DNA of 64,000 nt from Deltaproteobacteria bacterium (GTDB lineage Bacteria; Myxococcota_A; UBA796; UBA2385): the NCBI GenBank assembly GCA_018401435.1, contig JAGYJW010000030.1:23883-87882 (forward strand). Direction: 5' to 3'. The position numbers and the translations under genes are program-made. The notes beneath the pieces are model-generated. The model was not told where the DNA came from, ran no database searches, and was given only the letters and a program-made list of their open reading frames with translations. This document shows positions 32,547 through 47,190 of the stretch, one piece after another (within the stretch, counting starts at the first letter, position 1; each line of letters opens with the position of its first letter).

Positions 32547-32658
32547 GCACACCGGGCGCGTTCAGGGGGGGGTGGTGTAGGGTCTGTGAAGGGTGACGGC
32601 GCCGCGATCTCCCGCTATCCTGCCCTCCGCATCGACGAGCACCCACCCCAGGAGCACC

Positions 32659-33435
32659 ATGACCACCCTCTCCAGCATCGGCGCCACCCCCAGCCTGACC
32701 CAGGCCCGCACGACGGGCACGGCCGCGACCACCACCACGGCCACCGCAGCCACCGCGACGGCCACCGACACCGTCAGCCTGAGCGCCGAAGCCCGCGCCG
32801 CCCTGGCCGATGGGCAGCCCCTCTTCGCCAGCGAGGCCGCCATGGCCGACGCCGGCGCCAACGAAGAAGCCGACCAGGCCCAGGACGCCCGGAGGGGCCC
32901 GCGCTCGGAGATACACTTCAAGTCCAAGAGCGCCTCCATCGCCGAAAAGACCAAGCTCAAGCTGGAGAAGACGGCCAAGCAAGCCGACACCCGGGTGCTC
33001 AAGGCGGACGACAAGCTCCAGGACGAAAAAGCGGCGAAAGCCCAGCTCGTAGACCGCAAGGTGGGCACGCTGCAGGGCACCGAAGAGAACATGAAGCAAA
33101 AGGCGACGGAACGCATCGACGCCATCTACGCCGACGCCAAGGAGGACGGCGTCGAGCCCGACCTCGACCGGATCGACCAGATCCAGTCCAAGCTCAAGAA
33201 GGAGCGCGCCTTGAAGGCCAGCCATCAAGAGGCCTTCACCGAGCGCGTCGGCGGCCGCGAAGAGGACACCAAGTCCCGCGTGGGCGACAAGGTCAAGCTT
33301 GGCACCGACAAGCTCGAAGAGAAGAGCCGGAAGGTGGCCTCCCGCAGCACCGACCGCCTGTCGGGCATCGAAGAACGCATGAAGGCCCTGGACACCCGGG
33401 GCGACGTCGGCGAGGAGAGCCAGCGCAAGGTCTGA
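32659..33435 (+). CDS. Unusual Ala/Thr- then Lys/Glu/Asp-rich protein; candidate substrate of adjacent ATP-grasp
   Basis: 258-aa ORF from ATG 32659 (DTVSLSAEARAAL.. then charged repeats such as GTDKLEEKSRK, STDRLSGIEERMK, DTRGDVGEESQRKV); 27 nt upstream of ATP-grasp gene, same strand. Confidence 0.6.
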   Translation: MTTLSSIGATPSLTQARTTGTAATTTTATAATATATDTVSLSAEARAALADGQPLFASEAAMADAGANEEADQAQDARRGPRSEIHFKSKSASIAEKTKLKLEKTAKQADTRVLKADDKLQDEKAAKAQLVDRKVGTLQGTEENMKQKATERIDAIYADAKEDGVEPDLDRIDQIQSKLKKERALKASHQEAFTERVGGREEDTKSRVGDKVKLGTDKLEEKSRKVASRSTDRLSGIEERMKALDTRGDVGEESQRKV

Positions 33436-33462: not shown

Positions 33463-34470
33463 GTGTCTGCACCCAAGGTCCTGCTCGTCGGATCCTCCTT
33501 CCAGCAGGACCATTCGGTGCCAGCCGTGCGCCAGGCCCTCGCGCGGCTGGGCGCCCAGGTCCTCTTCCTGGACAGCGCCCAGCTTCCGGTGGGCGTGGAC
33601 CTGTCCTGGGGGGAGGACCCGGCCGACAGCCGCCTGCGCACCCCCGACTTTGACGTAGCCATGGGCGATCTGGACGCGGTCTGGCTGCGTCACACCCATG
33701 TGGCCGCCGGGGTCTGGGAGCTGATGGATCCGGCCTATGCCCCCGCCATCAAGGCCCAGACCGTCTCGGGCCTGTGGGATCTGTTGGGATGCCTGGACCA
33801 CCTGCGCCAGGTCGACCGCATCGCCGCCTTGCAGGCCCTGCCCGGCCAGGTGGGCATGCTGCGCCTGGCCCGCACCTGCGGCCTGGCGGTGCCCCGCACC
33901 CTGGTCTCCAACGATGTGGACCGGGTGGCCGCCTTCCTCGACGGCCTGGGCGGCCCGGCCATCCGCAAGATGATCGACTCCTCCGCCAGCAAGGTGCCCG
34001 GCCCGGACGGTCCGATCTACCTGCCCACCCAGCGGGTCAGCGCGCAGGATCGGGCCAACCTCGCCCGGGTGGCCATGTGCCCGATGGTCTTCCAGGAAGA
34101 GGTCGAGAAGGTGCGCGAGCTGCGCATCACCGTGGTGGGCGACCAGCTCTTCACCGGCGCGGTGGACCCCCGGGGATCGGCCAAGGGCGCGGTGGACTGG
34201 CGCCAGGACCCGACGCTGGTCGGCGCCTTCCGGGCCTGGGACCTGGACCCCACCGTGGCCGCCGCCGTGCGCCGCCTGATGACCCGCCTGGGCCTTGAAT
34301 TCGGGACGGTCGACATCATCGTGAAGCCCGATGGGGAGCATGTCTTCCTGGAGGTCAACACCATCTCCTTCTTCGATTTTCTGGAGGAGGCCACCGGGCT
34401 GCCCATCAGCGTGGCGGTGGCCGAGCTGCTCGCCGGCCTGCGGCCCGGGCGCCTGTCCCCCGCTTCTTGA
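33463..34470 (+). CDS. ATP-grasp ligase, MvdC/MvdD (graspetide)-like
   Basis: VREVLRITVVGD-type block KVRELRITVVGDQLFTGAVDPRG..AVDWRQDPTLVGAF..LMTRLGLEFGTVDIIVKPDGEHVFLEVNTISFFDFLEEATGLPISVAVAELLAGL. Confidence 0.8.
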   Translation: MSAPKVLLVGSSFQQDHSVPAVRQALARLGAQVLFLDSAQLPVGVDLSWGEDPADSRLRTPDFDVAMGDLDAVWLRHTHVAAGVWELMDPAYAPAIKAQTVSGLWDLLGCLDHLRQVDRIAALQALPGQVGMLRLARTCGLAVPRTLVSNDVDRVAAFLDGLGGPAIRKMIDSSASKVPGPDGPIYLPTQRVSAQDRANLARVAMCPMVFQEEVEKVRELRITVVGDQLFTGAVDPRGSAKGAVDWRQDPTLVGAFRAWDLDPTVAAAVRRLMTRLGLEFGTVDIIVKPDGEHVFLEVNTISFFDFLEEATGLPISVAVAELLAGLRPGRLSPAS

Positions 34471-34517: not shown

Positions 34518-34536
34518 AATGCGACAGTGTCGCATT
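34518..34536. promoter_or_regulatory. Perfect 9-1-9 palindrome, candidate Fur-family (Zur-like) operator
   Basis: aatgcgaca g tgtcgcatt, 29 bp before lipoprotein ATG 34565; fur-like gene adjacent. Confidence 0.7.
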
Positions 34537-34564
34537 AAGGGGGGTCGCCCACCCAGGAGCCCCC

Positions 34565-35035
34565 ATGCGACCCCTGCCCCTCCTGCTGATCGCCTTGGCA
34601 GCCTGCACCGACAAAGCCGATGACAGCGCCACCCTCGAAGACCCGGCCGAGCACGCCTGCGAGCAGCGCAGCCAGACGGGCACCGCCCTGACCGCCGCCA
34701 ACGCACCCGAAGACGCTCCCGCCCTGGCCCTGGGCGAGACGCCGGCCACCGCCAGCCTGGTGCCCGGATCCCCAGGCTACCTGTCCGTGGAGGTCACCGA
34801 AGAGCAGGCCGCCCTGCTCTTTGCGGGCACCGCGGATGTGGTCGTGGGCCTGGCCTTGGACGGGGTCGCCCAGACCCTGCCCCAGGGCAGCCCCAATTCG
34901 ACCTGCCCCGAAGACATCCCCGAGCACTTCGACCTCGACCTGGACCCCGGCACCTGGACGATCACCCTGGGCCCGGCCGCCACCGACAGCGTCTGGCTGC
35001 TGCTGATGCCCGCCGAGGGCCACGGCGACCACTGA
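34565..35035 (+). CDS. Hypothetical lipoprotein with His-rich C-terminus
   Basis: Lipobox LLIALAACTD; ends LLMPAEGHGDH. Confidence 0.65.
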   Translation: MRPLPLLLIALAACTDKADDSATLEDPAEHACEQRSQTGTALTAANAPEDAPALALGETPATASLVPGSPGYLSVEVTEEQAALLFAGTADVVVGLALDGVAQTLPQGSPNSTCPEDIPEHFDLDLDPGTWTITLGPAATDSVWLLLMPAEGHGDH

Positions 35036-35041
35036 GCAGCC

Positions 35042-35512
35042 TCAGGCGCAGTCGTCGCAGACGCCCCGCAGCTGCACGGCCACCGCCTGGGCCCGCACCG
35101 ACGCCGGCGCGCCGCCCTTGGCCGGCAGGCTCAGCAGCACGCCGGGCAGGCAGGTCACATCGCCACACTCCACGCACATGAAGTGGGGGTGGCCCATCTC
35201 GTCGTGCACGCTGGTGGCGCAGGGGTCCTCGCCCAGCTCGAAACGCCAGACATGATCCCCCAGGTCGTGGCGGTGCAGCAGGCCGGCCTTCACCAGGTCG
35301 GCCAGGTTGCGGTAGACCGTGGCCCGGTCCAGCCCGGCGGCGTCGCCGATCAGGTCCATCACCTCGGAGTGGGTGAGCGGACGGGCAGCCGACCGCAGGC
35401 ACTCCAGCACCGCGAGCCGGGGCCCGGTGGCCCGCAGGCCGACGGCGCGCAGGGTCTCCCGGAGATCTCCGGTGGACGCGGCGTGGGTGGGGTGTGTGCA
35501 GAGCTCGCCCAT
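35042..35512 (-). CDS. Fur-family transcriptional regulator (Zur/PerR type)
   Basis: LRATGPRLAVLECLRSAARPLTHSEVMDLIG..LDRATVYRNLADLVKAGLLHRHDLGDHVWRFEL..GHPHFMCVECGDVTCLPG..CDDCA. Confidence 0.9.
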   Translation of the reverse strand: MGELCTHPTHAASTGDLRETLRAVGLRATGPRLAVLECLRSAARPLTHSEVMDLIGDAAGLDRATVYRNLADLVKAGLLHRHDLGDHVWRFELGEDPCATSVHDEMGHPHFMCVECGDVTCLPGVLLSLPAKGGAPASVRAQAVAVQLRGVCDDCA

Positions 35513-47171: not shown

Positions 47172-47190
47172 GCCGCACCAATGGTGCGGC
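47172..47190. terminator. 9-1-9 hairpin downstream of PIN toxin (no U-tract)
   Basis: gccgcacca a tggtgcggc. Confidence 0.35.

Follow-up and report, generated by a model that had tools for sequence, protein, structure and literature searches.

A predicted Zur-type operator in front of a lipoprotein gene of znu-operon type in a Myxococcota genome

The perfect palindrome at positions 34518-34536 of the analysed stretch of Myxococcota DNA (the window, 64 kb in its full length) is very likely the operator (Zur box) through which a zinc-uptake regulator acts, and this regulator is very probably the protein encoded at 35042-35512. It would repress both the adjacent lipoprotein gene and a distant znu operon, the lipoprotein being a duplicated znu component. 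We infer DNA binding, metal identity and the direction of regulation; zinc is the most likely metal of the regulon. The features concerned are the following.

34518-34536, no strand: predicted Zur-type operator, AATGCGACAGTGTCGCATT, a 9-1-9 palindrome with the core TGCGACAGTGTCGCA at 34520-34534
34555-34559, plus strand: likely ribosome-binding site AGGAG, read from the sequence
34565-35035, plus strand: lipoprotein of an unnamed znu-operon family, with lipobox LAAC, Cys14 and the His-rich tail GHGDH; homologues in the znu operons of seven genomes
35042-35512, minus strand: Fur-family regulator, proposed Zur (PF01475, 47.5 bits; orthologues; zinc-linked boxes)

The preliminary description of this DNA had reported a perfect 9-1-9 palindrome 29 bp before the lipoprotein gene. 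The palindrome and its upstream position were found again in the window sequence, the distance was not: 28 bases separate its end from the ATG at 34565. Palindromy alone is not significant and by itself proves nothing: at 70% GC, chance should give roughly one perfect 9-1-9 palindrome of whatever sequence per 64 kb, and this window contains two. The other one, GCCGCACCAATGGTGCGGC, lies at 47172-47190, which puts the palindrome count at about chance level. The exact core TGCGACANTGTCGCA, as determined by pattern searches, is present in exactly two copies in the 7.13 Mb genome, compared to 0.01-0.03 copies expected from Markov models of order 0-4 trained on roughly 110 kb of its sequence. Both copies are located less than 30 bases from a start codon, upstream of zinc-operon-type genes. 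The second copy is found on contig C122, 13 bases 5' of the start codon of the znu operon; in the suggested genome scan for boxes before metal-uptake genes, the sole other perfect match precedes a znuA/znuC/znuB operon. In MAG.506, a genome independent of all motif derivation, the identical core, as TGCGACACTGTCGCA, precedes a znu operon as well, and a 50%-identical orthologue of the regulator lies about 1 kb beyond this operon. A chance feature, or a leader RNA hairpin acting without any regulator, would be in line with the number of palindromes expected per 64 kb and with the further example at 47172, but is most improbable in view of the recurrence of the exact core only at the znu operon of this genome, and again at that of an independent one, and of the closeness of both cores to start codons.

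Near-matches to the core in this genome (one or two mismatches, L003-L015) are mostly intragenic and were taken as background; one of them, C113:25850, lies within a TonB-receptor-like gene. A search for a sigma-70-like promoter near the box gave no match, which is uninformative for this phylum. The assembly consists of 204 contigs and is about 95% complete with 6% contamination, hence further box sites could be absent from it.

The convergent neighbour of the lipoprotein gene had been described as a Fur-family protein with CxxC pairs, which is borne out by our analysis. Encoded at 35042-35512 on the minus strand, 6 bases from the lipoprotein gene, it matches the Pfam FUR family PF01475 with 47.5 bits (gathering score 23.1) and belongs to the FUR superfamily. 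Its two CxxC pairs, CVEC and CDDC, are retained in all aligned orthologues; a structural zinc site formed by two CxxC pairs is not universal across this superfamily. An extra Cys (CxxCGxVxCL) is common to the regulator and its relatives and is missing from the canonical-looking Fur encoded on contig C128. The HxH motif is conserved; in the alignment, the closest orthologues have no positionally constant Cys ahead of it. The predicted metal ligands of the sensory site thus show no clear likeness to those of Zur (N2OS); such ligands vary even among known Zurs (PMC6103462). The NCBIfam Zur equivalog NF008646 (E. coli type) scores 15.9 bits against a cut-off of 167, those for Fur and PerR do slightly better, though none of the models comes near its cut-off, and the nearest structures are, weakly, Fur and PerR. 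Since the Zur model failed and the nearest proteins are weakly Fur and PerR, zinc is assigned to this regulator from its context, not from its sequence class. A genome search for FUR proteins found two of them, the C128 Fur (123 bits) and the window regulator (46.8 bits). Orthologues of the latter at E≤1e-10 are present in 35 of 63 genomes of the order.

This context was gathered from related genomes. A looser motif, TRCRACWNWGTYGYA, was built from the box of this genome and the znu promoters of the relatives G015, G019 and G032; it is thus partly derived from znu promoters. Scanning it over the 63 genomes yielded 17 sites as compared to 7 for the reversed pattern. Seven of the 17 are intragenic or unclear, about background and equal to the reversed-control count. 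The box precedes the znu operons of the three source genomes. Outside the motif derivation, it precedes a ZigA gene in G033 (the ZigA model gives 577 bits, slightly short of its cut-off of 600), separates a ZigA-like gene from a divergent TonB receptor gene in G026, and stands directly before the regulator gene itself in G020. G044 has two sites, one before a TonB receptor and the other flanked on one side by a lipoprotein gene and on the other by a gene that has a ZigA-like gene next to it downstream. In G005 the box is followed by a His/Cys-rich lipoprotein, which is suggestive only. Upstream gene calls in the relatives were made with a simple GC3-based caller. Zinc-linked boxes were found in 8 of the 35 genomes with the regulator and in none of the 28 without it (Fisher p = 0.006, an optimistic value owing to the shared ancestry of the genomes). 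By sequence and position, predicted Zur-type operators are located at znuABC and at other zinc genes.

Beside the boxed ZigA-like genes of G044 and G026, related His-rich lipoproteins with the motifs HSHHD and HDHHDHEH are encoded (L164:1638-2273 and L155:837-1451), a candidate for another zinc lipoprotein family. In the genome under study, no match to ZigA was found.

The 7-1-7 and 9-1-9 geometries are common to Fur boxes, and a canonical-looking Fur is present in the genome. The palindrome might therefore serve this Fur as an operator in responding to iron, and the FUR-family gene next to it would then be incidental. We judge this highly unlikely, as the targets are zinc genes of ZnuABC and ZigA type, the boxes co-occur with the window-type regulator, one box precedes this regulator's own gene (G020) and in MAG.506 the regulator is encoded near the znu operon. 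The designation of the box as Fur/Zur-type was accordingly supported and could be narrowed to zinc, because of the ZnuABC and ZigA targets in the relatives and because the sole other FUR protein of the genome is the canonical-looking Fur. A metal-responsive module of two genes had also been proposed. The link to metal is supported, the private module is not, because the unit is a predicted regulon; moreover, among the genomes compared, the convergent adjacency of regulator and lipoprotein is found in this genome only.

The operator is not recognisable everywhere. No box was recognised at the znu operons of G009, G013, G022 and G034, not even before the DUF2946-like first gene, and the regulators of these genomes are divergent or undetected. 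All four have the lipoprotein, and the operator code thus seems to drift among relatives.

On C122 the first gene of the operon encodes an outer-membrane protein of porin-like type. It is followed by the genes for ZnuA (PF01297, 151 bits), for a lipoprotein that carries a GLCHGGHCH motif, for the lipoprotein Lip166, for an ABC ATPase (ZnuC) and for an ABC-3 permease (ZnuB). It resembles AztABC and ZnuABC in its substrate-binding protein (PF01297), ATPase and ABC-3 permease, and the best NCBIfam models for these three parts are AztC, AztA and AztB. In contrast to these systems, its proteins do not reach the cut-offs of the Azt equivalogs, a porin-like protein comes first, and two extra lipoproteins are encoded between the binding protein and the ATPase. 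ZnuA-family proteins carry zinc or manganese, and MntC, of manganese type, is second-best for ZnuA (69 bits, compared to 79 bits for AztC). This leaves room for a Mur-like manganese sensor, with a manganese-importing transporter and a manganese-binding lipoprotein. Such a system is very unlikely here, considering that Azt models score best for all three transporter parts and that ZigA-type zinc chaperone genes of relatives carry the box.

Some peculiarities of the znu regions were observed in addition. The C122 ZnuB gene (L016:2404-3332) is split into two overlapping frames, 3332-2661 and 2769-2404, either by an assembly error or by a frameshift. The GLCHGGHCH lipoproteins form a second unnamed family, encoded between ZnuA and the window-type lipoprotein (L016:4502-5320, L030, L031, L033, L157) and without match in Pfam or NCBIfam. 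In relatives, the first gene of the znu region encodes a small protein that contains His and Cys and has APKTSPP or a similar sequence at its end (L030:3101-3499, L031:92-499, L032, L033, L122, L123), which in L030 is weakly DUF2946-like; such a protein is absent from the C122 operon.

The lipoprotein gene (34565-35035, plus strand) encodes 156 aa, and its product ends in AEGHGDH, confirming the GHGDH terminus reported earlier. No significant match to it or its family was found in Pfam, NCBIfam or PDB sequences. Its relatives are found in znu operons. Lip166 is a 35% paralogue; homologues from other genomes are closer, with about 48-56% identity. The operon order is unchanged in G009, G013, G022 and G034, where the homologues are encoded between the first lipoprotein and ZnuC; those of G051 and G057 have the same placement, and the MAG.506 homologue (L157) is also inside the operon. 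The position in the znu operon is thus conserved in seven other genomes and, with Lip166, in this genome. Given these homologues inside znu operons and the paralogue, the gene in the window is a duplicate of one from the znu operon and carries a box of its own. When 84,980 species genomes were scanned, with only fairly close relatives within reach, the lipoprotein was found in no more than five MAGs, four of them from Myxococcota and one labelled Klebsiella; four of the five are apparently identical with G009, G013, G022 and G034. The Klebsiella record, L159 (CAMAXZ010000008.1), is titled as a Klebsiella pneumoniae MAG and has a Myxococcota-type znu operon; it is probably mislabelled or mixed.

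Conserved in the family are the lipobox Cys, two more Cys, a PEHFDLDL region and a C-terminal HGH-type tail. An AlphaFold2 model gives a confident beta-sandwich (mean pLDDT 84.5) with the His tail at low confidence. According to Foldseek, the nearest folds are the PPC and collagen-binding domains of bacterial collagenases (E 1.1e-5, TM 0.68 by target length, 15% identity). The likeness is one of fold only, the lipoprotein having no protease part, and does not imply function. The window-type lipoproteins are an undescribed family with a His-rich tail and, as modelled, a PPC-like beta-sandwich. ZinT and AdcAII are accessory exported zinc proteins of Zur regulons; the window lipoprotein is analogous to them in place and possibly zinc-binding, and differs from them in having no PDB sequence match and in its modelled resemblance to a PPC/collagen-binding beta-sandwich. 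We consider it rather likely that the lipoprotein binds zinc.

The product of the window gene at 33463-34470 (plus strand) resembles the ATP-grasp peptide maturases MvdD and MvdC (NCBIfam TIGR04184, 197 bits, which is short of the cut-off). The gene directly 5' of it (32593-33435, plus strand) encodes a highly charged protein of 280 aa without family match. The two may represent a graspetide (omega-ester peptide) maturase and its precursor, which would be unusual in its length.

Zinc-bound Zur binds palindromic boxes, 7-1-7 or 9-1-9 among others, and represses, and Zur boxes differ between bacterial groups (PMC6103462). The Zur regulons of E. coli, Streptomyces, Mycobacterium, Bacillus and others (PMC6103462) resemble the present one in a Fur-family regulator with two CxxC pairs, in a palindromic 7-1-7 or 9-1-9 promoter box and in targets such as znuABC, COG0523/ZigA-type genes and TonB receptors. 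Compared to them, the box TGCRACW-N-WGTYGCA is its own, the regulator is far below the Zur model and the znu operon adds two unnamed lipoprotein families and a porin-like protein. The Zur regulon table of PMC6103462 is without Myxococcota. Among the open-licence papers searched, we found nothing relevant on a Myxococcota Zur regulon and unrelated papers only on TGCAACA with Zur.

By analogy to Zur (PMC6103462), the zinc-loaded regulator dimer would bind the palindrome under zinc-replete conditions and would thereby repress the window lipoprotein gene and the distant znu operon; zinc starvation would release both. Once exported, the lipoprotein, probably a beta-sandwich with a His-rich C-terminal tail on a periplasm-facing membrane, may bind zinc or hand it over alongside ZnuA, perhaps by means of its tail.

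For the Myxococcota, these results supply a candidate operator code together with its proposed regulator. They also supply a zinc operon of six genes, among them that of a porin-like protein and those of two lipoprotein families without a name; all of this is open to standard zinc-starvation experiments. Moreover, a zinc role becomes assignable from its regulon to a divergent Fur-family protein that is weakly closest to Fur and PerR. More tentatively, a distinct zinc-sensing branch of the Fur family (HxHF-C-x2-C-x3-x-CL, GxC-x2-C) with an operator code of its own, TGCRACW-N-WGTYGCA, might control a zinc regulon in Myxococcota. This regulon would include a so far unrecognised class of PPC-like His-tailed lipoproteins, which could be anchored to a membrane and carry zinc from a porin of the outer membrane to ZnuA or between the two.
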